From: Melioribacteraceae bacterium
GTDB lineage: Bacteria; Bacteroidota; Ignavibacteria; Ignavibacteriales; Melioribacteraceae
Direction: 5' to 3'
NCBI GenBank assembly: GCA_021740785.1
Contig: JAIOZI010000040.1
Location: forward strand, 1-46,417
Length of the DNA stretch: 46,417 nucleotides
In this document: positions 19,060 through 37,072 of the stretch, piece after piece
Position numbering within the stretch: the stretch's first letter is position 1
How the letters are laid out: each line of letters starts with the position of its first letter
Translations under genes and position numbers: made by a program
The notes under the pieces: model-generated
Database searches by the model: none
What the model was told of the DNA's origin: nothing
Seen by the model: the letters and a program-made list of their open reading frames with translations, nothing else

Positions 19060-19129
19060 GTTGCAGAGTACCGAATTAAATTATACTTTACGGTATAATA
19101 CTAAATAGTAAAATACCTATGAGTAAAAA

Positions 19130-20284: not shown

Positions 20285-20307
20285 TTAACAATAAATTAAA
20301 TGTATTT

Positions 20308-20928
20308 ATGAATTACGACTATCTCATTATTGGCGCCGGCTTCGCAGGTTCTGTTATGGCTGAAAGATTAGCATCGCAGCAAAATAAAAAAGTACTTGTT
20401 GTGGAAAAGCGCAATCACATTGCCGGTAATGCTTATGACGAGTATAATGAACACGGAATTTTAGTTCACCGCTACGGTCCGCATATATTTCATACAAATA
20501 GTAAAAAAGTAATTGAATATCTGTCCATGTTTACAGAATGGCTACCGTATGAGCATAAAGTTTTGGCTAAGTATAATAATGAACTTTATCCAATTCCGAT
20601 TAATAGAATCACCTTGAATAAATTGTACAACAAGAACTTTACGAGTGAAAAAGAAGTTAAAAATTTTTATAATTCCGTAAGAGAAATGAGACATCCGATT
20701 TTAAATTCTGAGGATATTATTGTCAATCAGGTTGGTCACGATTTATTTGAAAAATTTTTCAGATATTACACAAAGAAACAATGGGAAATGGAACCGCGGG
20801 AGTTGAGTCCATCAGTTTGCGGCAGAATTCCGGTTAGAACAAATGATGATTGCAGGTACTTTAGCGATAAGTATCAATTTATGCTGGGGTGCTGGGGTAG
20901 GGATATGATAAAGCGTTTTGCAAGATAA
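20308..20928 (+). pseudogene. glf: Truncated UDP-galactopyranose mutase (glf fragment)
   Basis: The first 192 codons (20308-20883) are a near copy of the intact glf at 22533: 181 of 192 residues agree by my count, including the FAD motif GAGFAGSVMAERL. Homology stops abruptly after '…DKYQFM'; 14 unrelated residues follow before the stop. The lost C-terminal half contains much of the substrate and FAD site, so the product should be inactive. The break coincides with TTATGC, a hexamer also present at the corresponding place in the flippase gene, and flippase-like sequence follows it. This is a recombination scar. Confidence 0.88.
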
Positions 20929-21074
20929 TGATTTTAGTGCGATAATTAATTTATTCCTACTGTTTATTTTCATCCCGATCCATAGGGCAGTTGGGGCAGA
21001 TATCTCTACTAATTGCTGAGATGCTGATAACTATTCTATGTTCACTTTTGTATGTTAGAAAAATATGGAAATAG
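20877..21074 (+). pseudogene. Decayed 3' end of a second flippase gene
   Basis: Allowing for a duplicated GCTGGGGT (20883-20898), frameshifts and a stop, translation gives GYDKAFCKIMILV, then AIINLFLLFIFIPIHRAVGA, then ISLLIAEMLITILCSLLYVR and KIWK-stop (21072-21074). These align in order with GYSKEFNKIIAFA, ALINLICMFIFVPLFEAAGA, LSMMITELFVTIVMVSFVIK and KKI of the intact flippase. The relic's stop overlaps the start of the GT-C gene by ten bases, so an older operon ran flippase, GT-C, glf. The divergence shows a different flippase allele, not a recent copy. Confidence 0.68.
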
Positions 21075-22543
21075 TAAAAACTAAAATCGAATATTATATT
21101 ACCAAGTTGAAAGTGTTAAGCAAGACTGCAAAACTTGTATTATTAACGATACTTACTGTATTATTTTTAGGCATCTTTACCTATTATGGTTTTGGAAAAA
21201 ATCTTTGGTTGGATGAACTATTCTCTATTCAAGTCATAGATCAAGATGCACCAAAACAAATTATCACCAAATTGTATTTAGGTGCGGATACAAATGCCCC
21301 TCTCTATTTTGTATTTCTAAAATTCTACTCAGATATATTTGGGTCCTCAGATTTTTCTCTTAAAATATTTTCACTGACTTGCGTGTTTTTGTCATTGATC
21401 ATTCTTTACCGAGTTTTTAGAAATTTTGGATTTAATGAAAGCGATATTTTATTGGTTCTGTTTTTTTTAATATTATCACAAGCGATTTCAACATATTTAC
21501 TTGTGGAGATTAGGGCTTATTCTCTTTACTTTTTACTGTCAACACTAACAGTATTAATATATTTAAGAAGTTTAGCTTCGGATTCTGTCACTGATTATTT
21601 TCATTTAATTTTCATTAATACCGCTTTGCTTTATACACATTATTTTTCATTCTTTTTAATTTCCGCAATAACTATATATGAGGTTTTGTTCCACAGAAGA
21701 AAAAAATACTTTCTTAGTTTGTTATTTAGTTTTTTGCTGTTTTCTGTTTGGATACCTGCTGTACTAAATCAATATTCTATAGGCAAAGGTTTGGTGCACC
21801 ATTCAATACCCTCAGTTATAGATGTTGTTTTTTCTTATAGATTTTTAATTGGATTTGGAGGGATTATTATTCTTTTTACGTCATTAATTTATTTAGTTTT
21901 CATTGAGAAAAAACGTGAACTGAACAGAATTCTTGTTTTTGGAATAATTCTTAGCATCCCACCCTTTCTTAATATCATTTTTTCAAAGGTTGGAATAAGT
22001 GTTCATAGCCCAAGGTATTTCATTTTTTCATTAATTGGGTTATCAATTATTTTGTTGTACACAATTAATAAACTTCAATTTAAGATAAAAATAATTTTAA
22101 TAATAATTTTAACTGCATTGGGAGTAAATCGAGTTTTGGCATACTCGGCATATATATATGAGAACCGCAAATACGTTGAGAAACTCAATGAAAAATCGCT
22201 AATTGATTTTCCTCTAGTTACTGAGAGTCCTCATATTTATTATCCGATCGACCATTACAATGAAAAGCAAGATGTATTTTTCTTACTAGATTCTTTATCA
22301 GCATTCGCTAACGGTAACATAAAAAATGCACCTTATGACTATTATTTGTTGAAAAACTATAAACGATTTTACTTTTTGCCGAACATTTTACCTATAGATA
22401 ATTTTTTAAAAATTCATAAAAAATTCTTTCTAATCAATGAGAATGAGCGGATGCTTTATGAAGTGAGATTTAAGAATAATAGCAAATATGAGATTACAAA
22501 AATGGATTCTATCATTTATAAAATTGAGACTAATGAAATATGA
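21065..22543 (+). CDS. GT-C family (GT39/ArnT-like) membrane glycosyltransferase
   Basis: Polytopic membrane protein of 492 residues with about 10-12 hydrophobic helices. The first extracytoplasmic loop holds 'LWLDELFSI', the conserved acidic pair of dolichyl/undecaprenyl-phosphate-sugar-dependent GT-C enzymes, followed by 'NAPLYFVFLKFY' as in the GT39/ArnT group. It should transfer a sugar from a lipid-phosphate donor on the periplasmic side, for example as a side branch on the repeat unit or on lipid A. It overlaps the intact glf by 11 bases, consistent with one operon. Confidence 0.82.
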   Translation: MEIVKTKIEYYITKLKVLSKTAKLVLLTILTVLFLGIFTYYGFGKNLWLDELFSIQVIDQDAPKQIITKLYLGADTNAPLYFVFLKFYSDIFGSSDFSLKIFSLTCVFLSLIILYRVFRNFGFNESDILLVLFFLILSQAISTYLLVEIRAYSLYFLLSTLTVLIYLRSLASDSVTDYFHLIFINTALLYTHYFSFFLISAITIYEVLFHRRKKYFLSLLFSFLLFSVWIPAVLNQYSIGKGLVHHSIPSVIDVVFSYRFLIGFGGIIILFTSLIYLVFIEKKRELNRILVFGIILSIPPFLNIIFSKVGISVHSPRYFIFSLIGLSIILLYTINKLQFKIKIILIIILTALGVNRVLAYSAYIYENRKYVEKLNEKSLIDFPLVTESPHIYYPIDHYNEKQDVFFLLDSLSAFANGNIKNAPYDYYLLKNYKRFYFLPNILPIDNFLKIHKKFFLINENERMLYEVRFKNNSKYEITKMDSIIYKIETNEI

Positions 22544-23633
22544 TTATTTAATAATAGGTGCGGGCTTCGCAGGCTCAGTTATGGCTGAAAGATTAGCATC
22601 GCAGCAAAATAAAAAAGTACTTGTTGTGGAAAAGCGCAATCACATTGCCGGTAATGCATATGATGAATATGATGAGCATGGAATTTTAGTTCACCGCTAC
22701 GGTCCGCATATATTTCATACAAATAGTAAAAAAGTATTTGAATATCTATCGTTATTTACAGAATGGATACCGTATGAGCATAAAGTTTTAGCCAAGTTCA
22801 ATAATGAACTTTATCCAATTCCGATTAATAGAATCACTTTGAATAAATTGTACAACAAGAACTTTAAGAGTGAAAAAGAAGTTGAAAATTTTTATAATTC
22901 CGTAAAAGAAAAGAGACATCCGATTTTAAATTCTGAAGATATAATTGTCAATCAGGTTGGCCATGACTTATTTGAAAAATTTTTTAGATATTACACAAAG
23001 AAACAATGGGAAATGGAACCGCGAGAATTGAGTCCATCTGTTTGCGGACGTATACCCGTCAGAACAAATGACGATTGCAGATACTTTACTGATAAGTATC
23101 AATTTATGCCGAAAGAAGGCTACATAAAAATGTTTGAAAAGATGCTATCGCATAAAAATATAGAAATAGTATTAAACACTGATTACAAGAAAGTAATTGA
23201 AGATATTAAATTTGATAAAATGATATATACCGGACCGATTGATTATTTTTTTGACTATCAATTCGGCAAGCTGCCTTACCGCTCGATTCGGTTTGAGTGG
23301 GAGACACTTGATTTGGAATTTTATCAAGAAACAGCTCAAGTTAATTATACTGGTCCGGAGGTAGCTTTCACTAGAATAATTGAACACAAGTATTTATCGG
23401 GTCAGAAAGCAATTAAAACAACAATAAGTAAAGAATATCCTAACTCAAACGGTGAACCATTTTACCCAATCCCAAATGTGAGTAGCCAAACACTATACAA
23501 TCAATACAAAAAAGAAAGTGAAAAAATTAAAAATGTAATCTTCACCGGTAGATTAGCTGAGTACAAATATTATAATATGGATCAGGTGGTAGCTCAAACC
23601 CTCAATCAATTTAGGAAATTAGCCACAACATGA
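22533..23633 (+). CDS. glf: UDP-galactopyranose mutase
   Basis: Flavoenzyme of 366 residues (usual length) that converts UDP-galactopyranose to UDP-galactofuranose, the donor for Galf residues in surface glycans. The FAD-binding GAGFAGSV begins at about residue 10; HIAGNAYDE, GPHIFHTNSKKV, 'FRYYTKKQWEMEP' and the C-terminal 'GRLAEYKYYNMDQVVAQTL' are all characteristic. ATG at 22533 was chosen because it gives the family N-terminus (MKYDYLIIGAG); the frame is open 15 codons upstream inside the preceding gene. The stop overlaps the next start (ATGA). A truncated near-copy lies at 20308. Confidence 0.96.
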   Translation: MKYDYLIIGAGFAGSVMAERLASQQNKKVLVVEKRNHIAGNAYDEYDEHGILVHRYGPHIFHTNSKKVFEYLSLFTEWIPYEHKVLAKFNNELYPIPINRITLNKLYNKNFKSEKEVENFYNSVKEKRHPILNSEDIIVNQVGHDLFEKFFRYYTKKQWEMEPRELSPSVCGRIPVRTNDDCRYFTDKYQFMPKEGYIKMFEKMLSHKNIEIVLNTDYKKVIEDIKFDKMIYTGPIDYFFDYQFGKLPYRSIRFEWETLDLEFYQETAQVNYTGPEVAFTRIIEHKYLSGQKAIKTTISKEYPNSNGEPFYPIPNVSSQTLYNQYKKESEKIKNVIFTGRLAEYKYYNMDQVVAQTLNQFRKLATT

Positions 23634-24550
23634 ATCCCTTAGTAACAGTAAATATTCTTTCATATAATCGAATAGAAGAACTGCGAAATACATTGACAAA
23701 AGTTTTTGATCAAGATTATAAAAATATAGAAGTAATTGTAGTTGATAATGCTTCTGCAGATGGCTCTCCTGAAATGGTTGAGAAGGAATTCCCAAATGTA
23801 AAGTTGATAAAACTTGAAAAAAATATTGGTATAGCAGGGTGGAACAGAGGTTTTGAAATTGCAAAAGGGGAGTTTGTGTTGGTTTTGGATGATGATGCTT
23901 ATCCTGATATTACCTCATTGAATCTGGGGGTGTCTTATTTAAAATCAAATTGTAGTTATGGAATAGTGGCTTATCGAATTGAAAATAAAAGATATCATTT
24001 ATCTGAAACGGCTAATTTTTTTGATCCCCCCAAAATGTTTGTCGGTTGCGGTGCCTTAATCTCAAATTCTGTAATTAATTCGATAGGTTATTTTAATGAG
24101 AGAATTTTTATTTACTATCATGAACTAGACTACTCAGCACGTTGTTATAATGCCGGATATAAAATCAAATATTTAGATAAAGCTAAGATATATCATCTGC
24201 AATCTTCGTCAGGAAGGAATGATTATTCAATAAATCCATTTATTTCTTCCTTTAGATTTTATAACTATTTTATCAGCTTTTCAATTTTCCTTTTTAGTTA
24301 TTTTCATTACAGACATGCGATAAAATATTTTGGTAAGTGGATAGTAAATCGTTTGATTATTTGTTTCCGTTACTCGTACTATAAAAGTTTTATAAAAGCC
24401 TTAGTATATATTTTCGCGAATATTAGAGGAATTGTCTCTGAAAGAAAAGTCTTAGATAAAAATGTACAACAGTTTTATAATAATGGAAATCATGCATTGG
24501 TAGATCGTCTATATTTCCCTACTTTCAGAAATGTTTTTAATAAAACTTAA
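23630..24550 (+). CDS. GT2 family glycosyltransferase
   Basis: Cytoplasmic, probably membrane-associated transferase of 306 residues with a GT-A fold. Motifs seen are 'VTVNILSYNR' at the N-terminus, 'VVDNASADGS', the DXD-type 'LVLDDDAYPD', 'GCGALISNSVI' and the acceptor-side 'FNERIFIYYHELDYSAR' (ED-type motif). The pattern is that of rhamnosyl/galactofuranosyl-like WcaA-type enzymes. With glf directly upstream and a four-base overlap, a galactofuranosyltransferase is possible, but donor specificity cannot be read from the sequence. Confidence 0.88.
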   Translation: MNPLVTVNILSYNRIEELRNTLTKVFDQDYKNIEVIVVDNASADGSPEMVEKEFPNVKLIKLEKNIGIAGWNRGFEIAKGEFVLVLDDDAYPDITSLNLGVSYLKSNCSYGIVAYRIENKRYHLSETANFFDPPKMFVGCGALISNSVINSIGYFNERIFIYYHELDYSARCYNAGYKIKYLDKAKIYHLQSSSGRNDYSINPFISSFRFYNYFISFSIFLFSYFHYRHAIKYFGKWIVNRLIICFRYSYYKSFIKALVYIFANIRGIVSERKVLDKNVQQFYNNGNHALVDRLYFPTFRNVFNKT

Positions 24551-25661
24551 AAATATACTCGCCGTAAGTATTATATTTTTTTTGAAAATTTTATTTAGGG
24601 TAAAGCTTACTTCTAGTGTAAAAAATCTTATAGTTTTTAAACACGATAAGTTTCTTGGTGATTTAATAATTGCATCTATATTTTTCGTTAATGCTGCAAA
24701 GTTTGATAAATTTCAAAAAATAATATTTGTTACGGATAGTAAAAACTCAGAGTTATTCGAGGAATATTCAGGGAATATATTAATATTAAAAATAGACAGT
24801 GCTAAGTACAAGAGAAATATTTTCTATAAGATAAAAAAAATAATAGAAATTCGGTCACATCATCCCACACATTGTATTAATCTAAATTTAAGAGTTGGAA
24901 TAAATATTGATGAATTGCCATTAGTTTGTGGTGCAAAAACTCTTTATGGACTAGCTGATTCAAATTCATCAAAGCGTACTCTAGGAAGTCTAACTGATAA
25001 ATATTATTATCAACTGTATAAAAATAGTAATCAAATTTTGCTTTATCGCTATAGATATCTACTAGAAATGGTCGCGGATGAAAAAATACAAGTAAAAACT
25101 ATTATTCCAATGGGAACAACAACCCAAGGAACAATTGATACCATATTAAAGAAGATTCAGAATAAAAAGATAATTTTAATAAACCCATTATCATCCAGAA
25201 ATGTGAAAAATTGGTCAATTAATAATTATAAAATGTTATTAAAAGAAATTATTTTGCTTCGTGATATCCATGTCATTTTGCTGGGCACTAAATCCCAAGA
25301 AAGCCAATTAAATGAACTTGTTTTAGATGTGAGTTATGTGAGGAATTTAGCAGGGAAATTATCTCTTATTGAAATCGCAAAGTTAATGAAACATTCAGCA
25401 ATTTTTATTGGCAATGATTCCGGGTTATTTCACTTGGCGAATGCTATAGATATTAGTTTTATTATTTTAATAGGTGGGGGTTCATATGGACTTTTTTATC
25501 CATATCCATATTGTAAAAATAAAATATATTTATATAATAGTCTTCCTTGTTTCGGATGTGAATGGCATTGTATTTATACAGAGCCAAAATGTATGACAGA
25601 AATAAAAGTTAATGAAGTACTAATAAACGTAAAAAAAATATTGAGTAGAGAAAAGAAATGA
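24531..25661 (+). CDS. GT9 (heptosyltransferase-like) glycosyltransferase
   Basis: GT-B enzyme of 376 residues resembling the LPS heptosyltransferases. 'KHDKFLGDLIIASIFF' is the N-terminal acceptor loop, 'INPLSSRNVKNWSINNYKML' the family mid-region, and 'GNDSGLFHLANAIDISFIIL' the donor-binding motif. The C-terminal cysteines 'PCFGCEWHC…PKCM' are typical of GT9. The start lies 20 bases inside the previous gene. From here to about 28890 the coding DNA is visibly richer in A and T than its flanks, suggesting acquisition from another source. The sugar transferred is unknown. Confidence 0.88.
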   Translation: MFLIKLKNILAVSIIFFLKILFRVKLTSSVKNLIVFKHDKFLGDLIIASIFFVNAAKFDKFQKIIFVTDSKNSELFEEYSGNILILKIDSAKYKRNIFYKIKKIIEIRSHHPTHCINLNLRVGINIDELPLVCGAKTLYGLADSNSSKRTLGSLTDKYYYQLYKNSNQILLYRYRYLLEMVADEKIQVKTIIPMGTTTQGTIDTILKKIQNKKIILINPLSSRNVKNWSINNYKMLLKEIILLRDIHVILLGTKSQESQLNELVLDVSYVRNLAGKLSLIEIAKLMKHSAIFIGNDSGLFHLANAIDISFIILIGGGSYGLFYPYPYCKNKIYLYNSLPCFGCEWHCIYTEPKCMTEIKVNEVLINVKKILSREKK

Positions 25662-25805
25662 ATGCTTAATTTTAGGAGTAATTCGGAAAATAAGTTTAAT
25701 ACAAAAACAGAAGTTATGCAAACAGTTATTCCGTGTAAAATGCGAAATTTAATAATTTATGTAATTAAATATTATATGTAGCGTAATTATCACTAAAAAA
25801 GAATT
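25662..25805. other. Short intergenic spacer in the glycan locus
   Basis: AT-rich gap between two otherwise tightly packed genes. It holds a 39-codon frame (25662-25781) that I could not match to any family and do not call. It may be a remnant of lost sequence. Confidence 0.35.
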
Positions 25806-27005
25806 ATGTCAATAAATAAAAGATATATTTTAATATATGTTAATTACAAGATAGATTTTGATTTCTTTTCAAGATTTCAGTCAGCTGTTGAAAAAATAGA
25901 TTATAAATTATTTCTTATTTCCAACAAAGTCTCCTTAAAATTCTATGCCAAAAAGAAAAACATAAAATTAGAACTTATAAAAAGTAAATATAAAATCAAT
26001 ACCAGGGTGGATATTAGTAGGTCAGTTGAATTTTTAAATAATTGGATTACCGAGTCTCAAGGTATATCATTATATAATTCAGTGTACTCTACTGCAAAAT
26101 CAATAATAAATAAATTTAATATTGATTATTTGTTTTTATTAAATGGAAATAATATTCATGATATAGCGTTAAAAGAGATTAGTGTTAATTTTAAAATCAA
26201 GAAAATATTTTTTGAGCTTTCTAATATCCCTGGAAAAATTTTTATCGATCCTATTGGAACTAATTCACAATCTAGCATCTTCCAATCAATTAATTTATTA
26301 GATAGTTATAAACTTGATGAAAATAAATATAAATTATGGTTAGCAAAGTATAAGGTTGCAAAGGAGAATTATTGTAAAGTTCCACAAGGAATATATAGAT
26401 TCAAAATTAATAATCCCTTATTACTAATTGACGAAATTGGATTTTTGCTCCTTCGAATTCCTAAAAATAAGAACGAAAATTATTTGAGAAAATTGTTAGA
26501 AAAAATACCTTCATTTAAATCAAATATATTTGATAGCTATGATATAGAGAGGAGAAGATATGTGTTTCTGCCCTTGCAATTACCTTCAGATACACAGCTG
26601 CTCATAAATAGCAAGATATCTAATGATGAGGCAATTTGCAGAGCTTCACAAATTGCCAAAAATATGAGTGTAGATCTTGTTGTAAAGCTTCATCCAGCAA
26701 CGATATCACATGATTTTATCAAGGAAGTAATGTTATTAAAACAGAAAATAAAGTTTTATTTAGTAGATATAAGAACAATAGATTTAATTAAAGCATCAGA
26801 AAAAATCATAACTATAAATTCAACGGTTGGTCTAGAATCCATGATTTTTAATAAAGAAGTCGAATTTTTAGGGGAGTCCATTTATACCGATTTTAATAGT
26901 AGCAGATTAAAAAAGTACATATGCTCTTATTTAGTTGATATAGATTATTTTTCTGATAAAGAGATTGAGTTGGAGTATCTGAATGATATCTTGCAGAGGG
27001 TATAA
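25806..27005 (+). CDS. Capsule-type (KpsC/KpsS-like) glycosyltransferase, probable
   Basis: Protein of 399 residues. The C-terminal half has the pattern of the capsule polysaccharide biosynthesis family: 'YVFLPLQLPSDTQLLINS', 'DLVVKLHPATISHDF', and 'ITINSTVGLESMIFNKEVEFLGESIY'. Known members (KpsC, KpsS) are beta-Kdo transferases that build the lipid linker of exported capsules. The N-terminal half is less typical, so the substrate is uncertain. AT-rich composition, like its neighbours. The next gene starts 32 bases after its stop. Confidence 0.68.
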   Translation: MSINKRYILIYVNYKIDFDFFSRFQSAVEKIDYKLFLISNKVSLKFYAKKKNIKLELIKSKYKINTRVDISRSVEFLNNWITESQGISLYNSVYSTAKSIINKFNIDYLFLLNGNNIHDIALKEISVNFKIKKIFFELSNIPGKIFIDPIGTNSQSSIFQSINLLDSYKLDENKYKLWLAKYKVAKENYCKVPQGIYRFKINNPLLLIDEIGFLLLRIPKNKNENYLRKLLEKIPSFKSNIFDSYDIERRRYVFLPLQLPSDTQLLINSKISNDEAICRASQIAKNMSVDLVVKLHPATISHDFIKEVMLLKQKIKFYLVDIRTIDLIKASEKIITINSTVGLESMIFNKEVEFLGESIYTDFNSSRLKKYICSYLVDIDYFSDKEIELEYLNDILQRV

Positions 27006-27037: not shown

Positions 27038-27772
27038 TTGCAAAATACTATTCAAATATCTAATTTAACTTTAAGCTTATCAGATAAAGAAATGCTTTTT
27101 AATTTAATTATTAACTCAATTAGAGAAAATAGTTATCAAAATATTATTGCTTGTGATTTCAGGCATCTCCTATATTTCCAAATTAACGAAAATATTTTTA
27201 AACAAAACACGTTATTCTATCCAGATTCAAGCGGCATATTTTTTATATTAAAATTATTTTTTCATAATAGAACAAAGAATTTTAAAAGATTAGTAAGTAC
27301 TGACATTCATTATAATATATTGAAATATTGTACAAAGAATAAATTAAAATTATTTCTACTTGGAGATGCAAGCGATATTTTAGAGAGTTTTATTAAACAA
27401 ATGAGACTCAAGATGGGAGATATTCAAATTGTAGGTTTTGCAAATGGCTATAATGATTTAAAAGAGAAAAAATTGATAGAAAATATTAATAAAAGTAATG
27501 CAGATATCTTAATGATTGGTCTAGGAGTTCCAAAACAGGAACTTTGGTTATTGGATCATTCAGATAAAATTAATATTCCAGTTAGGATTACTGTCGGTGC
27601 CTTTTTTACATATTACAGTGGTAAAATTAATCGAGCGCCAACTATAATAAGAGCAGTATATCTAGAGTGGTTTTTTAGATTTATTAAAGAACCGAAAAGA
27701 TTATTCATAAGATATTTTTTTGATTTTCCGAAAGCAATCTTATTACTATTATCAATAAAATGGAAAAAATAA
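27038..27772 (+). CDS. WecG/TagA/CpsF family (GT26) glycosyltransferase
   Basis: Protein of 244 residues (normal for the family). Family motifs are in order: 'FYPDSSGIFFILKLF' (the usual PDG region), 'KLFLLGDASDI', 'MIGLGVPKQELWLLDH', 'VGAFFTYYSGKINRAP', and 'LEWFFRFIKEPKRLFIRYF'. Known members add N-acetylmannosamine or its uronate to a lipid-linked acceptor at the membrane during enterobacterial common antigen, teichoic acid or capsule synthesis. The start is TTG at 27038; an upstream ATG is followed at once by a stop. It overlaps the next gene by 13 bases. Confidence 0.9.
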   Translation: MQNTIQISNLTLSLSDKEMLFNLIINSIRENSYQNIIACDFRHLLYFQINENIFKQNTLFYPDSSGIFFILKLFFHNRTKNFKRLVSTDIHYNILKYCTKNKLKLFLLGDASDILESFIKQMRLKMGDIQIVGFANGYNDLKEKKLIENINKSNADILMIGLGVPKQELWLLDHSDKINIPVRITVGAFFTYYSGKINRAPTIIRAVYLEWFFRFIKEPKRLFIRYFFDFPKAILLLLSIKWKK

Positions 27773-28890
27773 ATATTGCAGTCATATGTCCAGATGTAGG
27801 AATTGATTTTGGTAGAAGCAAAATAATTTATACTTTACTGGAAAATTATAACTTATTTGAAAGTAAGTATAATCTGTTTTTGATAACTAATAAAGAAAGC
27901 AATATAAATGCTTTTGAAAATATAAATGTAAACATAAAATTTATTCCGATTGTAATTGAGAAAAGAAATCCTATAAATTTTATTATTTCTTTAGTCAAGC
28001 TATTCACAATAGCTAAACACTATAAAATAAGCTTGCTTCATTCACATCATAGATATTCAGACTTAATGGCTTTTTTGGTATCTAGATTTTTAAAAATACC
28101 AACTTGTTCAACAGTTCATTCATTTACTTATGGTAATATAAGAACAAGTTATTTAAATGATGAAATAATCTGTGTAAGTCATTGTATTAAAGAGCATCTC
28201 ATTAAATACTACAATATAAATAACAAGAAATTACATGTTGTTTATAACGGCACATTTATTCCTAAAAAAAGTTTTCGGAGCATATCTAAAATGAACAGAA
28301 TTCAAAGTGAGTTCAAGATATTATGTATTGGTCGCTTTGATTATGATAAAGGTCAAGACGTTTTAATTAAAGCTATGGAGATAATCTGGAAGACTAAAAA
28401 TAATATTGTACTAACTCTTGTTGGAGAATATTCTAGAAATACTATTAAATATATGAGAAAAAATAATAAAATAGTAAAATCTAGTTTTCAAAAATCATTC
28501 CAATATTTACTCAAAGAGAATTATTCTAGAATTAGAATTGTAAAATCTGATAATACCCCTTGGAATGAATTAATTAAAACTGATCTAGTTGTGATCCCTT
28601 CACGAATAGAAGCATTCGGATTAGTTGCTATTGAAGCAGGCGGCTTAGGTAAATGTGTAATTGCTGCAGATACTGGTGGTTTAATGGAGATTATTAAGAA
28701 CGAACAAAATGGTTTGTTATTTGAGTCTGAAAACTATTATGAACTAAGTGAGAAAATATCGTTTCTTATTAATAACAAAGAACAAATTAATTATTATGGC
28801 AGAAATTTGAAAAAGGATGTGTTTGAAAAATATAGTATTGATGAAATGGTGACAGGTTATTTACGGATATATTCAGATATATTTAACTGA
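27760..28890 (+). CDS. GT4 family glycosyltransferase
   Basis: GT-B retaining transferase of 376 residues. 'HSHHRYSDLMAFLVSRF' and 'TVHSFTYG' lie in the acceptor half; 'ILCIGRFDYDKGQDVLIKAM' opens the donor half, and 'VIPSRIEAFGLVAIEAGGLG' holds the E-x7-E donor-binding motif. The donor sugar is not predictable. It is the last transferase of the glycan locus; a 205-base gap follows before the sortase gene. Very AT-rich, with many ATA and AAA codons. Confidence 0.9.
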   Translation: MEKINIAVICPDVGIDFGRSKIIYTLLENYNLFESKYNLFLITNKESNINAFENINVNIKFIPIVIEKRNPINFIISLVKLFTIAKHYKISLLHSHHRYSDLMAFLVSRFLKIPTCSTVHSFTYGNIRTSYLNDEIICVSHCIKEHLIKYYNINNKKLHVVYNGTFIPKKSFRSISKMNRIQSEFKILCIGRFDYDKGQDVLIKAMEIIWKTKNNIVLTLVGEYSRNTIKYMRKNNKIVKSSFQKSFQYLLKENYSRIRIVKSDNTPWNELIKTDLVVIPSRIEAFGLVAIEAGGLGKCVIAADTGGLMEIIKNEQNGLLFESENYYELSEKISFLINNKEQINYYGRNLKKDVFEKYSIDEMVTGYLRIYSDIFN

Positions 28891-28973: not shown

Positions 28974-29099
28974 ATGAAATCGCATATTCGTCGTATTTTA
29001 TTACTTTTATCTTGCTATATTTATTGGAAATTAATAAGAACGACATTTCTTATATTTACAAATGTCTCAAAAAAATCAATCTTCGAGAAAGAATTATGA
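28974..29099 (+). CDS. Possible 41-residue small protein coupled to the sortase gene
   Basis: A short frame with a fair ribosome site (CAGGA before ATG at 28974). It encodes a hydrophobic, positively charged peptide beginning MKSHIRRILLLL. Its stop overlaps the start of the PorU-like gene as ATGA, the arrangement used for translational coupling. No family was recognised. It could be a leader peptide, a remnant of a lost gene or chance. Confidence 0.3.
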   Translation: MKSHIRRILLLLSCYIYWKLIRTTFLIFTNVSKKSIFEKEL

Positions 29100-32000
29100 G
29101 AATTTATAAAATCGTCTTCCTTGTATCTCTTTATTTGTTTATTCATGATACGGTTTTTAGTCAGTATAGATTAATTAAAACTAACACTGCGAATAACAAG
29201 CTTCACGTTACAATTGAAATTGAAAGTGAGAACTTTTTGTTTAATAGACTTGAATCGCTTTCTCAAAGAATTAAGGAAAATGATAGCTCAATCCCCACTT
29301 TTGAAAATCCGTTCTTTCTCGATCTCTTTATAAATCTGCCTGAAAATGTTGATGGATCAAAAATAACTACATTACAAAGAGAATCAAAACAAATTGATAT
29401 TGCACTTGGTGATTATTTATCCCAGCAGGTACTTAATTCATCTAATTTATTCGATTCTAAGAGTAGGAAAATTGAGTTTCGCGGGAATTTCAAGTTCAAG
29501 CAATTTATAATGTCTCACATCAGAATTTATCCGCTTAGCTTTAATTCAAACGGAGTGGGGATAAACAGCATTATTGAATTAATTGTACCGTTACCACCGA
29601 CCAGCAGTCAAAGTACAATTATATATAAACAGCGGAACGGTATGCTGATTACAGATGAATTGAAAATCCAAAGAGCCAAAGCTGCAGAGACAACTTTTGA
29701 TTGGATCGACTTTAATAGCGATTATTTGATAATAAAAACAAACAGCGATAACATATATAGAATCACAAAATCAGATTTAGAGGAATACGGTATAAGCTCA
29801 ATCACAATTAATCCCAATGAGTTACAACTATTTTTAAGAGGGGAAGAAATTCCAATATTTGTTTATGGAGCTGAAGACAATTCATTTGATGATGGTGACT
29901 ACATCGAATTTGCCTCAATGAGAAATTATGGAGGTAAGCATAGAGAAGTTGGTGAATTTGGACAGCCGTATAATGAATACTTAGGACGTTATACAGATAC
30001 AACAACTTATTTTTTAACATGGGGCATTGCAGCTGGACTGCGAGTAGAAGAAAGATCTTATGATTCCTCCATATTGGAAAGCTTGGATTTTTACCATGAA
30101 GTTCTACACTATGAAGTAAATAATTGGTTTGATTTTTCAATGGCGGATATTGTCAGAAGGGAATCACCATATTGGTTGGAAAATAAAACATGGAATGAAG
30201 GAAATATTAATGTAGGAATTCGGAATAGGAATTTTACTTTATCGGATGTATATCCGGATGAAACCGTTTATTTATTTGCAAAACTCCAAGATTATGCATC
30301 GAACATTAGCACAAATGCCCATGCTTTGGGTTTGAGTATAAATTCGACGTCTATTTATGATACCACAATCATTGATAAATATGAAAAGGTTGTATTACAA
30401 GCATCATATAATTCTAATGAACTGCTGGAGGGAAATAATACTTTTAAATTACATTCGTTTGCAACTGAGGCTGTATTAAACGCTTGTATCGGTGATTGGT
30501 ATGAAATTGAGTATCCAAGATATCTTAAGACATATAACGACACACTCCTGTTTAAATTTCCATATGTCGCGGTTCCAACTGATTACAAAGTAAGCATTAC
30601 CAATACCGGTTCTTCCGATTATGTAATTTGGCAGTATAAAAATGGTTACAAGAAATTTATTACACACCGGCAAGACGAATCAATTTACTTTACTGATAAT
30701 ATTCAGTCTGAAAACAAGTATATAATTAAATCCGCTGAAAAAATTAGGAAGCCGGAGTTTGCTTTTTATGGAAAAATAGAAAATTTAGGCGGCTCAAATT
30801 TACAAGCAGATTATTTACTAATTACTCACCCAAATTTCATCTTACAAGCAAATGAATATGCTGAGTTTATTGAAACAAGCTATTCGGTTTCGGCAAAAGT
30901 GATCAATGTAAATGATATTTATAATCAATTCAGTTACGGTTTTTTTAATCCTGAATCAATAAAAGATTTTCTTAAAATTACTCATCAAAATTGGGAGCTT
31001 CCTCACCCCGAAAATGTGTTTTTAGTAGGTGGCGGGACGTATGATTATCATTTAAATAAACATATTCATCAAGGCTATCCGATTGTTAAAAACTATGTCC
31101 CGTCATTCGGCGCTTCAGTTAGTGATAATTGGTTTACTGTATGGGATACGACTGGAGCATTTATCCCGCAAATGAATATTGGAAGAATCCCTGTAACTAC
31201 TACCGTAGAATTTGATTGGTATTTTCAAAAGCATCAGCAATATGTGTCACAAGAATTCACTTCATGGAATAAAACATTTTTATTCTTTTCAGGTGGTACA
31301 GGGGATGATCAATCGCAGTTAGATCAGTTGAGAGGAGTTAATGAATTCATTATTAATAATTACACCGCTGTACCGCCAATTGCAGGAAAGGTAAATCATT
31401 TTTATAAAACCATTGATCCTACTACTAATTTTGGTCCGTTTACAGATGAAGAGGTTGAAAGCGCTATTGATGAAGGTGCGTTGTTCATTTCTTATATCGG
31501 GCACAGCGGAACCAGAACTTGGGATAATTCGATAACCGAACCTTACCAGTTGGAAAATGAAGTAAACAGATTTCCACTTGTAACCGATTTCGGATGTTCA
31601 ACCGGAAGATTTGCAGAACCTGACGTAACTTCCTTTGCGGAATTATTTACTCTGTCCGGGGATGGACAGGCAATCTCTTATGTTGGAAATAGTTCACTCG
31701 GCTTCCTATCGACTGCGACTACTGTACCGCGAATATTTTATCGTAAGATTCTAGCTGATTCAATTTATAATATATCCGAAGCATTAAATTCTGCTAAACT
31801 TGAATTGATTCAAAATTACGGTAACACGGGAGTTAACCAGTTATTTGGTTTAACAAATACTTATTTTGGCGATCCTATATTGAATATTGCACTGCCGGAT
31901 AAACCTAATTTAGAAATCTCATCAACCGGTATTGCTTTTTCTACCCAAACTCCGTCTGATAATTTGGATAGTCTTGGTATCCAGATTGTTTTCAATAATT

Positions 32001-34360
32001 TTGGGATTGTAAGCACTGATTCATTTAAGGTCAGTTGTAAACATATTTATGAGGGAATAGAAGATTCAACTTATATATTTAATAAGACTGTACCATGGCT
32101 GAGTGATACAATTTCCCTTTCAATACCAATTAAATCCAAAGCCGGTGAACATTCATTAGAAGTAGTTCTGGACAGTGAAAATCAAGTTGATGAAATTTAT
32201 GAAGATGATAATAATATTGTCGTAAATTTCGAAGTTTCATCATCCTCTTACAGACCTCTACTTGGTTATGAAACTGAAAGTACGCTGAATAACCAAATTA
32301 ATATACTGAATCCAACAGCGGTTGCATCATCAACAACCTTACAGTTGGAAATAAGTGATAAACCGGAATTTCTGACATCAACTTTATTAGAAAAATCCAT
32401 CTCAAATATCCAAACACAATTTGGTTTAGAAAGTTTTGATTATGACAGATATTGGTTTCGCTTAAAGGGCAACAATCAAGAAGTTTATAGTAGCAGTTAC
32501 ACATTTTATAAATCTTCAGATGGAATAGCTTATCTCATTTCAGATTCACTCTCAATGGGAAAATCAACATTTCTAAATCTACGCAATAATGGTAATCAAA
32601 TTGAATTAGCAAATGATTCGATTAATTTTTCCGCTTTATCTGCCGGATTTAATGATGGAAGGACAGTTCTAATTTTGAAAAATGGAGATAATTTCATCCC
32701 GGAAAATACTTTGCGTGGTCATCATATATGTTTATTCGATACAAGTAATTATAAATTTGTCAAACACAAACATTTTGATTTATTAGGCGGTGGAAGTACA
32801 GCAGCTCAAGAATATATTCAGTTCTTAGATACTTTAACTAGTAAATTTATCACAATTATTGCAATTAATGATGAGGGTCGTGTAACGAATGCGGAATTAC
32901 GTAATCAGATAAAATCCATCGGCAGCCAATACATTGATAATGTCGGATTTCGTTATTCATGGGCTATTATTGGTCAAAAAGGAGCGCCAATCGGCTCAGT
33001 TCCTGAAGCTTATACAGTACCGACATTCGGCAGCGTAACGATTGATACGACAATTGTAAAACAGTTTAATAACGGGACTCTTTTAACAAGTCTAATTGGT
33101 CCATCTCGAGGTTGGAAAAATATATTTATTGAGGATTCTGTTTATTCAAATACATCCTTAACTTATTTCCCGGTCGTTTATGATAATAATATGATGCCCG
33201 ATACATTATCTCCAATTTCATCCACAACAAACTTATTTGATATTACCGGTATTGATTATAAGCAGTATCCGAAAATGAGATTGCTTGCAGAATTTAATAA
33301 AAGTGTGAATTCAACTTCTCCAAAATTATTTTCTCTTGGAGTTGAGTATGATGAGACAGCTGAGTTAGCTACTAATTATCAGGTAGCAGCCGTTACATCC
33401 GATTCTGTATTTCAAGGGGACAGTGTTTCTTTTAATTTTGCCGTATATAATGTTGGGGGCTCAACAGCAGATTCATTTAATGTTTTGCTGAATTTGATCA
33501 AGTCCGACAATACAAAGAATAAATTATTCGATACTCTAGTTACTGATTTATCACTGAATAGCCGGAAAGAATTTCTCTATAATTATCAATCAAATTATTA
33601 TGACGGTTATGGAAATATGGCATTTGAAATTTCCATTGATACTTCGAACAGAGTAACCGAATTTTATGAGGATAATAATTACTTTAAGCAGCCATTCTAT
33701 GTTATCCAAGACACAATTACAAACATAAAATCAGCAGAGATTGATGTAACATTCGATGGAATGAAAATTTATAATGGTGATTTTGTGTCGGACAAACCGG
33801 AAATTAAAATCTTATTGCAGTATCAACCTGAGTTTCCGTTCAGCGATACCAATGCTGTTCAATTTTTTCTAGACAGCAAGCCACTTTATTATACGGTGAT
33901 GGATACAATCGGATATGATACAATAAAACGACAGGTCACATATAGTTTATCTCCTTCACTGTCGGATGGCGAACATCTATTGAGGATCGAAGGGAAAAAT
34001 TTATTCGGTAATTTACAATCCTTGTCGGGTTATGAAGTGTCATTTCAAGTATCCAGCGAGGCAAAACTTCTATACGTTTATAATTTCCCAAATCCTTTTG
34101 GTGATCAAACATTTTTCACATTCAAACTAACTAAGATCCCGGATGAATTGAAGCTGAGAATTTATACAGTAGCCGGCAGGTTGATAAAAGAATTTTTAAT
34201 TCCACCATCGGAACTCAATATTGATTTGAATAAAGTGTTTTGGGATGGACGAGACGAAGACGGTGATTTAGTGGCAAATGGAGTTTATATCTATAAATTA
34301 ATTGCTGAATCCGAGGGGAAAACAATCTCTCAAACACAAAAATTGGCAGTTGTTCGTTAA
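29096..34360 (+). CDS. porU: PorU-like T9SS sortase (C25 peptidase) with CARDB and ILEI/PANDER-like domains
   Basis: Giant secreted protein of 1754 residues; classical PorU is about 1160. ATG at 29096 gives a good signal peptide (MRIYKIVFLVSLYLFIHDTV, then FSQ). A gingipain-type C25 domain spans about residues 570-935, with catalytic H803 in 'SYIGHSGT' and C834 in 'TDFGCSTGRF'. Two CARDB-like Ig domains follow (about 940-1045 and 1425-1545). Between them, about 1195-1325, lies a segment matching the ILEI/PANDER domain of FAM3 proteins: 'KHFDLLGGG', 'IAINDEGRVTNAELR', 'SIGSQYIDNVGFRYSWAIIG' and 'QKGAP'. The C-terminus has 'YNFPNPFG' and a FlgD/T9SS-type tail. Known: PorU removes the sorting domain from T9SS cargo and joins cargo to anionic LPS on the surface. 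A stand-alone surface protease is the alternative. Confidence 0.85.
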   Translation: MRIYKIVFLVSLYLFIHDTVFSQYRLIKTNTANNKLHVTIEIESENFLFNRLESLSQRIKENDSSIPTFENPFFLDLFINLPENVDGSKITTLQRESKQIDIALGDYLSQQVLNSSNLFDSKSRKIEFRGNFKFKQFIMSHIRIYPLSFNSNGVGINSIIELIVPLPPTSSQSTIIYKQRNGMLITDELKIQRAKAAETTFDWIDFNSDYLIIKTNSDNIYRITKSDLEEYGISSITINPNELQLFLRGEEIPIFVYGAEDNSFDDGDYIEFASMRNYGGKHREVGEFGQPYNEYLGRYTDTTTYFLTWGIAAGLRVEERSYDSSILESLDFYHEVLHYEVNNWFDFSMADIVRRESPYWLENKTWNEGNINVGIRNRNFTLSDVYPDETVYLFAKLQDYASNISTNAHALGLSINSTSIYDTTIIDKYEKVVLQASYNSNELLEGNNTFKLHSFATEAVLNACIGDWYEIEYPRYLKTYNDTLLFKFPYVAVPTDYKVSITNTGSSDYVIWQYKNGYKKFITHRQDESIYFTDNIQSENKYIIKSAEKIRKPEFAFYGKIENLGGSNLQADYLLITHPNFILQANEYAEFIETSYSVSAKVINVNDIYNQFSYGFFNPESIKDFLKITHQNWELPHPENVFLVGGGTYDYHLNKHIHQGYPIVKNYVPSFGASVSDNWFTVWDTTGAFIPQMNIGRIPVTTTVEFDWYFQKHQQYVSQEFTSWNKTFLFFSGGTGDDQSQLDQLRGVNEFIINNYTAVPPIAGKVNHFYKTIDPTTNFGPFTDEEVESAIDEGALFISYIGHSGTRTWDNSITEPYQLENEVNRFPLVTDFGCSTGRFAEPDVTSFAELFTLSGDGQAISYVGNSSLGFLSTATTVPRIFYRKILADSIYNISEALNSAKLELIQNYGNTGVNQLFGLTNTYFGDPILNIALPDKPNLEISSTGIAFSTQTPSDNLDSLGIQIVFNNFGIVSTDSFKVSCKHIYEGIEDSTYIFNKTVPWLSDTISLSIPIKSKAGEHSLEVVLDSENQVDEIYEDDNNIVVNFEVSSSSYRPLLGYETESTLNNQINILNPTAVASSTTLQLEISDKPEFLTSTLLEKSISNIQTQFGLESFDYDRYWFRLKGNNQEVYSSSYTFYKSSDGIAYLISDSLSMGKSTFLNLRNNGNQIELANDSINFSALSAGFNDGRTVLILKNGDNFIPENTLRGHHICLFDTSNYKFVKHKHFDLLGGGSTAAQEYIQFLDTLTSKFITIIAINDEGRVTNAELRNQIKSIGSQYIDNVGFRYSWAIIGQKGAPIGSVPEAYTVPTFGSVTIDTTIVKQFNNGTLLTSLIGPSRGWKNIFIEDSVYSNTSLTYFPVVYDNNMMPDTLSPISSTTNLFDITGIDYKQYPKMRLLAEFNKSVNSTSPKLFSLGVEYDETAELATNYQVAAVTSDSVFQGDSVSFNFAVYNVGGSTADSFNVLLNLIKSDNTKNKLFDTLVTDLSLNSRKEFLYNYQSNYYDGYGNMAFEISIDTSNRVTEFYEDNNYFKQPFYVIQDTITNIKSAEIDVTFDGMKIYNGDFVSDKPEIKILLQYQPEFPFSDTNAVQFFLDSKPLYYTVMDTIGYDTIKRQVTYSLSPSLSDGEHLLRIEGKNLFGNLQSLSGYEVSFQVSSEAKLLYVYNFPNPFGDQTFFTFKLTKIPDELKLRIYTVAGRLIKEFLIPPSELNIDLNKVFWDGRDEDGDLVANGVYIYKLIAESEGKTISQTQKLAVVR

Positions 34361-35035
34361 ATGAAAATAATTACTACTGTACTAATATATTTTTTTCTAT
34401 TTACTAGTATTTCATCACAGTCAAATTCTTTTGATGAAACCTTACCGGTTGAATTAGTTTATTTTGATGCAATTGACATGACTGATTCCATTTTAGTAAT
34501 TTGGGGCACAGCCACAGAACTAAATAATTATGGATTTTACATACAAAGATCTTTTGAGGACAGTTTGAATTTTACCGATATTGGTTTTGTATTAGGTCAC
34601 GGAACTTCATTTTCACCAAAAGACTATGAATATGGTGATTCAACTATGCCGGAATCGGGCACTTACTATTATCGATTAAAACAAATTGATACTGATGGAT
34701 TATACGAATACTCCTGGATTATCTCAATCGATTTTGTTACGGATTTACCTGACATTGAGGAATTAATTATAAAAGATTTTTCACTTTTTCAGAATTATCC
34801 TAATCCATTTAATCCTTCTACGACAATCTCTTTTGAAATTGCAAAAAGAGAAAATATTAGATTGGAAGTAATTAATAGTCTTGGGGAAACTGTCGATGTG
34901 GTTTTCAAAGGTCGTTTGTCTGCCGGAGTTCATGAATTTAATTTCAATGCGTCCGGTTTGACATCAGGTGTTTACTTTTATAGATTGAAGTCACAGAATC
35001 ATTCTCTAATAAAAAAAATGATTCTCTTAAGATAA
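34361..35035 (+). CDS. Mini T9SS cargo protein: Fn3-like module plus sorting domain
   Basis: Secreted protein of 224 residues with a signal peptide (MKIITTVLIYFFLFTSISS). Almost nothing precedes the common pre-tail module of T9SS cargo ('LPVELVYFDAIDMTDS', 'TATELNNYGFYIQRS', 'YYYRLKQIDTDGLYEYS'). The sorting domain follows ('LFQNYPNPFNPSTTISFEI', ending KKMILLR). There is no enzymatic head domain. The ATG touches the sortase stop codon, so the two are translated from one message. It could be a helper or substrate of the sortase, or the leftover tail of a larger protein. Confidence 0.85.
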   Translation: MKIITTVLIYFFLFTSISSQSNSFDETLPVELVYFDAIDMTDSILVIWGTATELNNYGFYIQRSFEDSLNFTDIGFVLGHGTSFSPKDYEYGDSTMPESGTYYYRLKQIDTDGLYEYSWIISIDFVTDLPDIEELIIKDFSLFQNYPNPFNPSTTISFEIAKRENIRLEVINSLGETVDVVFKGRLSAGVHEFNFNASGLTSGVYFYRLKSQNHSLIKKMILLR

Positions 35036-35061: not shown

Positions 35062-36405
35062 ATGAAAAAACTCATAATCATAATTTCATTATTTACAGCA
35101 GTATCGATATTTGCTCAGTATAATTCACTCCGTCAGAATGAGGGAGTAATCGGCGGGGGAGCAGGCGTAACCTGGATCAACGGTCAGCCCTTCTATTCAA
35201 TTCATATCAACCCGGAAATTGCATTTGCAAATTTTGGGGTGGGACTTGATCTTAATCTTGAATTCGGCGCTGACGGAAATTTGAGAACGGAAAACTTCAA
35301 CGAGTTTTCGGATTATGCCAGTATTATCCGGTATGTTAGATACGGTCAAAAAAACGATCCCGTTTATGCCCGGCTCGGCGCTTTGGATTATGCTTCATTG
35401 GGTCACGGAAGTATAATGTATTTGTATAATAATAGTCCGAGTTATGATACTAGAAAAATAGGATTGGAATTCGATATTGATTTTTCCACGTTCGGATTTG
35501 AATCAGTTTACGGAAGTTTCGGTGAAGCGGGTGTTGCCGGTCTGCGCGGTTATGTTCGTCCTATTCAATTCACACAATTAGCAAGTACTCCTATTATCGG
35601 TCAGTTGGAAGTTGGCGCTACCTTTGCCGGTGATTTTAATGATAAAGCCGGTGTTATTTCTGGTGCTCCTGATCCTATAACCGGTGAATTTAAAGCTTCG
35701 TTTGATGAAGGCAGTACATCAATAGTTGGATTTGATTTGGGATTGCCTATCATTCGCACAAGTGTGGTTGGGGTAGATCTTTATTTTGATTATGCGAGTA
35801 TTGTCGGTTTCGGAAGCGGTACTGCTGCCGGAGTGAAAATGGGATTTAGCGGCTTGGGACTTGTGACTCTTCAAGCAAAACTTGAGAGAAGATTTAATGG
35901 GGATAATTATTTGCCATCCTATTTTAATGCGATGTATGAAATACAAAGATTTAATTTGAATGAATCAACCGGGGTGGTTAACAGTAAAATTCAAAACGTA
36001 AAATTCGGAAGCGCTGTAGGAGATGGATTTTACGGTGAACTTCTTGTTGATGTTCTCGGTGTGTTTGATATTCTCGGCAGTTACCAGCGGCTTGATGATC
36101 ATCCGCAGAGCGGCATGCTTCATCTTTCGTCAAATATTTCACCCGAAGGTTCTTCTTATGTTTTGCGCGCGGGTTATGATAAGGTGAATATCATTGATGA
36201 AAGTGATTTGTTCAAACTTGACGATCGTTCATACTTATTCGCTGAAGCAGGTTATAAACCCATAGAATACATTTTAGTATCATTAGTATATAATTGGACT
36301 TTCACACCGGTAAGAGACGGCGGTGATAATGTAATTGATTATGTACCTCAAAAGAAAATTGAACCGCGGGTAACTTTTATTTATCCTTTTAATGTCGGCG
36401 GATAA
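35062..36405 (+). CDS. Predicted outer-membrane barrel protein
   Basis: Secreted protein of 447 residues with a signal peptide (MKKLIIIISLFTAVSIFA). The mature part is strand-rich with repeated Gly-aromatic patterns ('GVGLDLNLEFGADGNLRTE', 'YVRYGQKNDPVYARLGALD'), as in outer-membrane barrels; the chain ends 'RVTFIYPFNVGG'. I do not recognise the family, and it lacks the PorV N-terminal signature. It follows the sortase and mini-cargo genes by 26 bases and ends at a terminator, so it is the last gene of the sortase operon. A T9SS-associated role is possible from position only. Confidence 0.7.
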   Translation: MKKLIIIISLFTAVSIFAQYNSLRQNEGVIGGGAGVTWINGQPFYSIHINPEIAFANFGVGLDLNLEFGADGNLRTENFNEFSDYASIIRYVRYGQKNDPVYARLGALDYASLGHGSIMYLYNNSPSYDTRKIGLEFDIDFSTFGFESVYGSFGEAGVAGLRGYVRPIQFTQLASTPIIGQLEVGATFAGDFNDKAGVISGAPDPITGEFKASFDEGSTSIVGFDLGLPIIRTSVVGVDLYFDYASIVGFGSGTAAGVKMGFSGLGLVTLQAKLERRFNGDNYLPSYFNAMYEIQRFNLNESTGVVNSKIQNVKFGSAVGDGFYGELLVDVLGVFDILGSYQRLDDHPQSGMLHLSSNISPEGSSYVLRAGYDKVNIIDESDLFKLDDRSYLFAEAGYKPIEYILVSLVYNWTFTPVRDGGDNVIDYVPQKKIEPRVTFIYPFNVGG

Positions 36406-36411: not shown

Positions 36412-36440
36412 GGAGAGTTTACCGCTCTCCGTTTTTGTTT
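36412..36440. terminator. Bidirectional intrinsic terminator
   Basis: GGAGAG (36412-36417) pairs with CTCTCC (36425-36430), followed by GTTTTTGTTT on the plus strand. The minus-strand copy is followed by ATTTTATTAT. It sits between two convergent genes and overlaps the last codons and stop of the HAD gene, so it can serve both directions. Confidence 0.75.
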
Positions 36441-37072
36441 ATAAACTTCAGCAATTCCTCAACTGAATAAAATTTGTTTTTGATGTTCATCAGTTCGAGT
36501 CTTTCTTTTGCATAACTGTCCCACATAACTGCCCCAAAGTCAACTCCGGCATCTTCCGCAGCATGAAAATCTACAGGCGCATCTCCAATCATTATAACTT
36601 TCTTCTTATCGAATTTGTGTTTTTCTAATATCTGGTTAATTCCATCGGGTGATGGTTTGTGATCTTTCACATCATCACCGCTGTAGATTTCTTCAAAGTA
36701 ATCACTATATCCCAAGCGTTTCAAAGTAATATCGGTGCTCTTTCTTCCTTTCCCGGTAAAAACGAAAAGTCTCTTATTATTTTCGAATAAGTTCTTCAAT
36801 ACCTCATCCATCCCATCAAAAGTTTTCACCAGTTTATCATGATTGTTTTCATAAAATATGAAATAATCATTCTCCGCTTCATCATATTTCTCTTTCATCA
36901 TTTCTCTTAGAATAAACTCCTCGGTCGGTCCAAATAATGAAATGATTTCTTTATCGGAAGGATCATGTCCTAAATATTTATTGGAAACGAATCTGAATGT
37001 TTCAAAAATAAGCTCGTTTGTTGATGCAAGTGTTCCATCCACATCAAAAATATAAGCATCATAATTTTGCAT
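36419..37072 (-). CDS. HAD-superfamily phosphatase (phosphoglycolate phosphatase-like)
   Basis: Cytoplasmic hydrolase of 217 residues. The motifs are complete: 'YIFDVDGTLAST' with nucleophile D10 and D12, 'VFTGKGRKST' (motif II), K in 'DHKPSPDGI' (motif III), and 'MIGDAPVDFHAAEDAG' (motif IV). The helical cap after motif I places it in the phosphoglycolate phosphatase/beta-phosphoglucomutase branch; the substrate is uncertain. AAGGAG lies close before the ATG and overlaps the stop of the upstream gene, so the two form an operon. Its own stop lies within a terminator stem. Confidence 0.9.
   Translation of the reverse strand: MQNYDAYIFDVDGTLASTNELIFETFRFVSNKYLGHDPSDKEIISLFGPTEEFILREMMKEKYDEAENDYFIFYENNHDKLVKTFDGMDEVLKNLFENNKRLFVFTGKGRKSTDITLKRLGYSDYFEEIYSGDDVKDHKPSPDGINQILEKHKFDKKKVIMIGDAPVDFHAAEDAGVDFGAVMWDSYAKERLELMNIKNKFYSVEELLKFINKNGER

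Follow-up and report, generated by a model that had tools for sequence, protein, structure and literature searches.

What might a second PorU-like enzyme do in a genome that already encodes a canonical PorU, when that enzyme carries a domain otherwise familiar from sugar-binding human proteins and its gene stands at the end of a polysaccharide locus? The question is raised by a 46,417-nucleotide stretch of a Melioribacteraceae bacterium (Bacteroidota, Ignavibacteria; contig JAIOZI010000040.1 of GenBank assembly GCA_021740785.1), hereafter the window, in which positions 29096-34360 of the plus strand encode, from an ATG, a protein of 1754 residues. A longer frame through a TTG start gives the open reading frame (ORF) 29012-34360; the ATG start yields an N terminus that, judged by eye, resembles a signal peptide. 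An earlier sequence-only reading had taken this protein for the PorU sortase of the type IX secretion system (T9SS) with a built-in glycan-recognition module. We find that the protein has an ILEI/PANDER domain and belongs to the PorU2 clade of C25 proteins, and we consider the chances about even that it is a second T9SS sortase which couples cargo to the glycan made by the adjoining genes.

The ILEI domain, of the type found in the FAM3 proteins and the stem of POMGnT1, had been spotted by eye, and its identity is borne out by family, database and fold comparisons alike. The search with PF15711 that the earlier reading had proposed scores 64 bits (E 1.9e-17, curated cut-off 27) over residues 1207-1297 (32714-32986), the one match in the entire source genome; the same model has no match in 14 control genomes. 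When the window domain was searched as a single sequence against the Protein Data Bank, FAM3C was the top match (5e-8) and the first seven rows were FAM3C, FAM3B, FAM3A and the POMGnT1 stem. With a profile built from 38 bacterial copies, FAM3B was reached at 2.8e-21, POMGnT1 at 1.4e-19 and TMEM2, a cell-surface hyaluronidase, at 2.9e-16, the following rows being at 1e-4 or weaker. The structure of residues 1045-1440 was predicted with AlphaFold2 from an alignment with 75 relatives (5 of the 80 named loci introduced below were omitted, their ILEI domain or its flank being cut or split), giving a mean predicted local distance difference test score (pLDDT) of 93.2 and a predicted TM-score of 0.83. 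In a Foldseek search with this model the first 19 rows were structures of POMGnT1, FAM3B, FAM3C and FAM3A (best E 9.9e-9), and VIA-align superposed window residues about 1172-1323 on the POMGnT1 stem (5ggf_B) with a Z of 20.4 and 1.8 A over 141 residues, followed by FAM3C (20.0), FAM3A (19.2), FAM3B (19.0) and TMEM2 (14.6). The domain as delimited by structure (about 1172-1323; 32609-33064) thus exceeds its Pfam core. A chance match as the source of the call is ruled out by the structural Z, and the predicted fold confirms the region as a true ILEI/PANDER domain.

The next VIA-align rows, with Z 9.7-11.1, comprise meprin, the PNGase C-terminal domain, Eph receptors, Fbs1, phage tail proteins and others; most of them extend from position 95-101 of the model to 375-386, with just about 107-127 residues aligned. 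Because so long a span contains so few aligned residues, the jelly-roll that these rows share appears to be interrupted by the ILEI domain, and we infer from the model that the latter is nested within a jelly-roll (MAM-like beta-sandwich) domain, the N-terminal part of which would comprise residues about 1141-1171 (32516-32608) and the C-terminal part residues about 1324-1422 (33065-33361); these rows may also partly reflect a common arrangement. Variants of the layout occur elsewhere. An extra ILEI-like match precedes the C25 domain in L069 (oriented 8104-13956; 46.9 bits) and L070 (6246-11627; 31.1 bits). The usual match after C25 scores a weak 7.3 bits in L069 and a clear 56 bits in L070, and some PorU2-clade proteins may therefore carry two ILEI domains. 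A 585-residue protein without C25 in L036 (9694-11451), from a genome of another family, also contains ILEI.

The remainder of the chain is that of a sortase-type enzyme. A C25 (gingipain/PorU) peptidase domain occupies residues 573-930 (30812-31885; PF01364, E 2.9e-58), with catalytic His803 (31502-31504) and Cys834 (31595-31597) exactly where the sequence-only reading had placed them. Both residues are present in every PorU2-clade C25 domain examined (39/39, 80/80 and 21/21 in three sets), and thus it is the enzyme that is conserved, not just a lectin. The two CARDB-like domains of that reading correspond to two stretches matched by PF07705, the better of which covers residues 1432-1531 (33389-33688); the first module, of weak self-similarity to the second, was delimited approximately by eye at 31901-32230. 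A FlgD/T9SS-like C-terminal domain (CTD) follows at residues 1664-1741 (34085-34318), and the tail scores 21.8 bits with TIGR04183, slightly under the cut-off of 23. The protein had been described as about 600 residues longer than classical PorU, which is true against Porphyromonas gingivalis PorU, the numbering of which stops near 1158 (PMC11285876). Within its own genome it exceeds the canonical PorU by 438 residues, if the 1316-codon frame of the latter is taken, or by 554, if the longest ATG ORF is.

That canonical PorU corrects the identity first assigned to the window protein. The source genome encodes four C25 proteins, including a canonical PorU on contig C51 (NF033707, 998 bits), and has PorZ on C17 (401 bits). 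The earlier reading had itself considered a separate PorU elsewhere in the genome, with the present protein being only a surface protease; the separate PorU exists, and the protease half of that alternative is weighed below. The T9SS sorting domain is matched at 150 places in the genome (all that were scored), and hence the T9SS cargo set is large. The window protein matches the PorU2 model of NCBIfam (NF052324) best, with 392 bits, below the cut-off of 450, and scores 277 bits with the PorU model NF033707, for which the cut-off is 420. In a FastTree phylogeny of 99 C25 domains, 61 PorU2-type rows (one gene, L072 = L244, being included twice) are split from 34 PorU rows by a branch with support 100, and the window protein lies on the PorU2 side, together with PorU2 proteins that score above the cut-off. 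An earlier tree was a quick one; the two trees disagree on the attachment of the ILEI-less C25 proteins L111 and L112, and the deep branches inside PorU2 are unsure.

The proposed survey of homologues for the insert gave a broad answer, namely, that ILEI is detected in 54 of the 61 PorU2-type rows. The seven misses are the split gene of L046 (with ILEI in the next ORF), the broken gene of L243, a 1080-residue protein in L232 and four members of family f28, in which the domain may have been lost or become too divergent to detect. Above-cut-off PorU2 proteins of Bacteroidota also have ILEI downstream of C25, a region that the NF052324 model, spanning 879 N-terminal positions, stops short of. Because it is detected in 54 of 61 rows, ILEI is a trait of the PorU2 clade rather than a peculiarity of the window sortase. 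No PorV2 match was found in the adjoining ORFs 27760-28887, 34361-35032, 35062-36402 and 36422-37072; among the genome matches listed, the best for PorV2 scores 181 bits on C8 (cut-off 325). L046 (6289-11440), in a one-contig genome, has its PorU2 gene broken up into three ORFs. L052, L066 and L233 each have a closely spaced pair of PorU2 genes with ILEI, either side by side or separated by PorV2, which suggests duplication.

These frequencies depend on how the relatives were gathered. Patterns derived from the C25 part were run against named genomes and gave 130 relatives, the best 80 of which make up the named loci. Most are from metagenome-assembled genomes titled Ignavibacteria, Ignavibacteriales, Melioribacter(aceae) or Bacteroidetes/Bacteroidota; the strain Stygiobacter electus 09-Me also has the locus (L182). 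The loci were ranked with an ILEI-containing query, and 78 of the 80 have ILEI, the other two being cut by a contig end. The first 40 survey loci (L035-L074) were selected by ILEI, so that counting the domain there is circular. Among loci chosen by NF052324 alone and above its cut-off (L115-L135), a first profile detected ILEI in 15 of 21. After retraining on a pool enlarged by the new loci, the profile found it in 15 of 21 C25 ORFs of L225-L244, one of them weak (L231, 11.5 bits), the misses being four f28 members, one 1080-residue protein and one broken gene.

In Ignavibacteria, the PorU2 gene closes a polysaccharide locus, a point that the sequence-only reading had not used and that strengthens a role in glycan recognition. 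All on the plus strand of the window, a GT4-type glycosyltransferase gene (27760-28890) lies directly upstream of PorU2 and is preceded by a gene for a WecG/TagA/CpsF glycosyltransferase (27038-27772), the second gene upstream; the rest of the locus (17794-27005) encodes a Wzx-type flippase (17794-19059), a PMT_2 protein (21065-22543), UDP-galactopyranose mutase (Glf, 22488-23633), glycosyltransferases of families GT2 (23630-24550) and GT9 (24531-25661), and a capsule-synthesis protein (25806-27005). The order Wzx, Glf, glycosyltransferases, WecG, PorU2 recurs among the named relatives. Of the 68 named loci in which an ORF lies upstream of PorU2, 51 have WecG in that adjacent position (on the same strand in 36, on the opposite one in 15). 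Within three ORFs, at least one polysaccharide gene accompanies PorU2 in 48/50 named and 25/35 survey loci, compared with 6/31 for canonical PorU, and at least two in 46/50 and 18/35, compared with 0/31. This count left out loci that had fewer than three ORFs to one side of the gene (30 of 80 named, 3 of 34 PorU), as well as survey loci lacking a C25 ORF (L036, L053 and L063) or with too few ORFs (L038 and L069). The neighbour profiles were built from PorU2 neighbours and could favour PorU2; as a check, a comparison with Pfam alone was made in 19 genomes (of 27 usable pairs) with 114 neighbours on each side, covering the first 25 of 113 and 63 families. Among the families listed, the PorU2 side showed 14 GT4-type, 11 WecG, 7 GT2 and 5 GT9 proteins, and the canonical PorU side showed PorV (19 proteins), with four Glycos_transf_1 proteins and four matches to the starch-synthase model. 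A short UDP-galactopyranose mutase ORF, 20308-20928 in the window (206 residues), has only the start of the GLF domain and lies near the full copy, and an AAA_14/DUF4143 ATPase gene (16400-17644) stands just ahead of the locus.

The genes next to PorU2 differ from family to family. In family f15, the neighbours are a sugar transferase and GDP-mannose dehydratase-type enzymes, with a mannose-1-phosphate guanylyltransferase-like gene named by eye; in f33, an O-antigen-ligase-domain protein is present in L061 and GT4 follows in three loci. Such different sets speak against simple inheritance of a single gene order. Across 49 genomes of the class, WecG was found in 20 of 32 with ILEI and in 2 of 17 without (p 8e-4, only a guide given that the genomes are related); the first 36 genomes, before the remaining 13 were added, had given 19/20 and 2/16. 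In the light of the full count, a general bond between PorU2 and WecG is too strong a claim.

If the ILEI domain reads a glycan, its contact residues are of interest. According to PMC9802357, POMGnT1 binds beta-linked GlcNAc (N-acetylglucosamine) through Arg129, Asp179 and Arg207, which are spaced by 50 and 28 residues, and FAM3A and FAM3C are sugar binders like the POMGnT1 stem. In the bacterial-profile alignment, these contacts align with Arg1207 (32714-32716), Asp1259 (32870-32872) and Arg1286 (32951-32953), so that all three are present in the window protein, which, judging from its sequence, could bind sugar in the manner of POMGnT1. Of the glycan module that had been proposed to be built into PorU, the FAM3/POMGnT1 fold and the three contact residues stand, and the identity of its host as canonical PorU falls. 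Across 76 sequences (the window protein and named relatives), the first arginine is found in 24, the aspartate in 54 and the second arginine in 63. A POMGnT1-like site as a rule for the clade was therefore rejected.

Downstream of PorU2, starting at the base after its stop codon, lies a gene for a small T9SS cargo-like protein of 224 residues with a type A CTD (34361-35035, plus strand). Of the 68 named loci with an ORF after PorU2, 18 have a homologue there (18/80 overall); 16 of the 18 match at least 150 of the 224 residues, and in 10 the gene overlaps PorU2 by 4 bases; in most named loci a different gene directly follows PorU2. The coupling suggests that the small protein is a dedicated substrate of PorU2. 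A conserved outer-membrane barrel (35062-36405), which often follows PorU2, was also considered as a partner and was dropped because it occurs independently of PorU2: it is found in genomes with no detected ILEI gene (such as G051, G066, G074 and G148), and in G009, G184 and G180 it lies on other contigs or distant from PorU2. The barrel has no Pfam match, and its model (pLDDT 83) matched a broad range of porins and barrels, none with a high TM-score. Elsewhere in the window, a minus-strand gene (953-3700) encodes a multihaem cytochrome with 9 CXXCH motifs, MtrC- and cytochrome c7-like Pfam matches and a T9SS type A sorting domain, a candidate for a T9SS-exported surface electron carrier as predicted from these motifs.

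How, then, would such a protein act? In P. gingivalis, as described in PMC8545088, PorU cuts the sorting domain and joins cargo to anionic lipopolysaccharide (A-LPS); PorZ binds the A-LPS glycan, delivers it to PorU and holds PorU more tightly when the glycan is there. According to a second source, an amide bond links the C terminus of the cargo to a special sugar (PMC7468200). Because a PorU-like enzyme and a FAM3-type domain share one chain in the window protein, and because its gene lies with a glycan locus in its own lineage, we propose, with about equal weight for and against, that PorU2 works beside canonical PorU and PorZ as a second T9SS sortase with a built-in glycan holder. After export, the C25 domain would remove the sorting domain of a restricted range of cargo, of which the small CTD protein from the next gene is probably a member, and, acting as a transpeptidase, would attach the C terminus so exposed to the surface polysaccharide that its own locus makes; the ILEI domain, within the jelly-roll between the CARDB modules, would keep this polysaccharide close to the catalytic residues. 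Both the binding and the coupling, like the choice of cargo and of the neighbouring glycan as partner, are steps that we infer. A more tentative extension, on which we would place the smaller share of belief, is that the polysaccharide locus brings its own sortase and small cargo, that the ILEI/jelly-roll unit reads the local glycan with variable contacts tracking the polysaccharide of the strain, and that the POMGnT1/FAM3 fold accordingly has relatives in bacterial glycan-coupling sortases.

Several observations weigh against the second-sortase proposal. The genome already has canonical PorU and PorZ, and the CTD of the small cargo protein is of the ordinary type A. Only 24 of the 76 sequences keep the Arg129 equivalent and 22 the full triad, and the POMGnT1-like site is therefore not general in the clade. 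In Bacteroidota proper, polysaccharide linkage is seen in 3 of 19 loci, which does not differ from PorU, so that linkage as a rule for every PorU2 was rejected, and PorV2 is the immediate neighbour of PorU2 in 7 of 20 loci (in L243, it lies near PorU2 with one ORF between). Within the class, 11 of 12 ILEI genomes of families f5, f6, f8 and f10 lack WecG. Because the genomes are related, the linkages seen in them do not count as independent events. Some class genomes counted as lacking ILEI (G023, G109, G124, G160 and G164 among them), which have long C25 proteins matching the PorU2 model, may hide an undetected domain.

Gingipain-type C25 enzymes are proteases, and with PorU and PorZ in place the window protein could be one as well, acting at the surface in the maturation or release of T9SS proteins and tethered by a lectin-like ILEI domain to the cell's own polysaccharide. 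The same fold and linkage data fit such an arrangement, which we nevertheless consider unlikely, given that it is matched best by the models of two sortases, PorU2 and PorU (in a comparison that leaves gingipains aside), that the protein has a sorting-domain-like tail of its own, and that its gene is coupled to that of a CTD protein. FAM3 proteins also have roles unexplained by sugars, and ILEI might be a docking or spacer domain for a protein, such as a PorV2-like partner or the CTD of cargo, with the polysaccharide linkage marking a general surface-structure locus. The variable glycan contacts and the Bacteroidota PorU2 proteins, which keep ILEI without polysaccharide linkage and often beside PorV2, are what would be seen in that case; the linkage to different gene sets in different families, the retention of the Asp179 and Arg207 equivalents by most of the sequences compared, and the sugar binding of FAM3A, FAM3C and the POMGnT1 stem (PMC9802357) make it improbable in our view. 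Finally, the position of PorU2 at the end of flippase and glycosyltransferase loci, and a Wzi-type capsule assembly gene two genes on in L043, could mean that PorU2 retains or lays out the polysaccharide itself, its C25 domain acting on a polysaccharide-carrying partner and sorting no cargo; with a conserved dyad and a coupled CTD protein both pointing to protein processing, this seems very unlikely.

If the second-sortase proposal is correct, the purpose of the PorU2 family would be explained, and the T9SS would gain another covalent means of anchoring, suited to the polysaccharide that the neighbouring genes produce and served by a sortase with a built-in substitute for PorZ; the fold of human cytokine-like and glycosylation proteins would, moreover, be tied to glycan recognition in bacteria. 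PorU2 has already been named as a family by NCBIfam and is uncharacterised; what is new is the glycan-binding-type domain and the link to polysaccharide loci. Among the matches listed from the open-licence PubMed Central (PMC) literature, a scope that leaves preprints aside, neither the PorU2-ILEI architecture nor its polysaccharide-locus link is described, and searches of that literature for PorU2 with type IX secretion, and for a sortase with exopolysaccharide and T9SS, returned nothing. For PorV2 there was a paper that, by its title, concerns rotavirus, and another in which the '2' is most probably a footnote sign attached to PorV in a table.

Compared with known systems, the window protein shares with canonical PorU (NF033707; P. 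gingivalis PorU) the His/Cys dyad of the C25 domain and the FlgD/T9SS-like tail, and differs in its separate clade, in its ILEI, jelly-roll and CARDB modules, and in lying with glycosyltransferases, whereas PorU lies with PorV. The family described as putative type IX secretion system sortase PorU2 (NF052324, with PorV2, NF052325) is its best match, in the same clade and with ILEI downstream of C25, from which the window protein departs by scoring below the cut-off and having no PorV2 gene in the adjoining ORFs. To FAM3A/B/C and the POMGnT1 stem (PF15711) it is tied by sequence (E to 5e-8), fold (Z 19-20) and the three GlcNAc contacts; unlike them, its ILEI domain is bacterial and apparently nested in a jelly-roll of a cysteine-peptidase-type protein. 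With PorZ it would share the job of holding the anchor glycan for a sortase, PorZ being a separate protein of a different fold that is also present in the source genome. A parallel in gene arrangement is offered by exosortase/PEP-CTERM loci, in which a protein-sorting enzyme is likewise encoded inside an exopolysaccharide locus, although exosortase is an unrelated inner-membrane enzyme that serves another secretion route.

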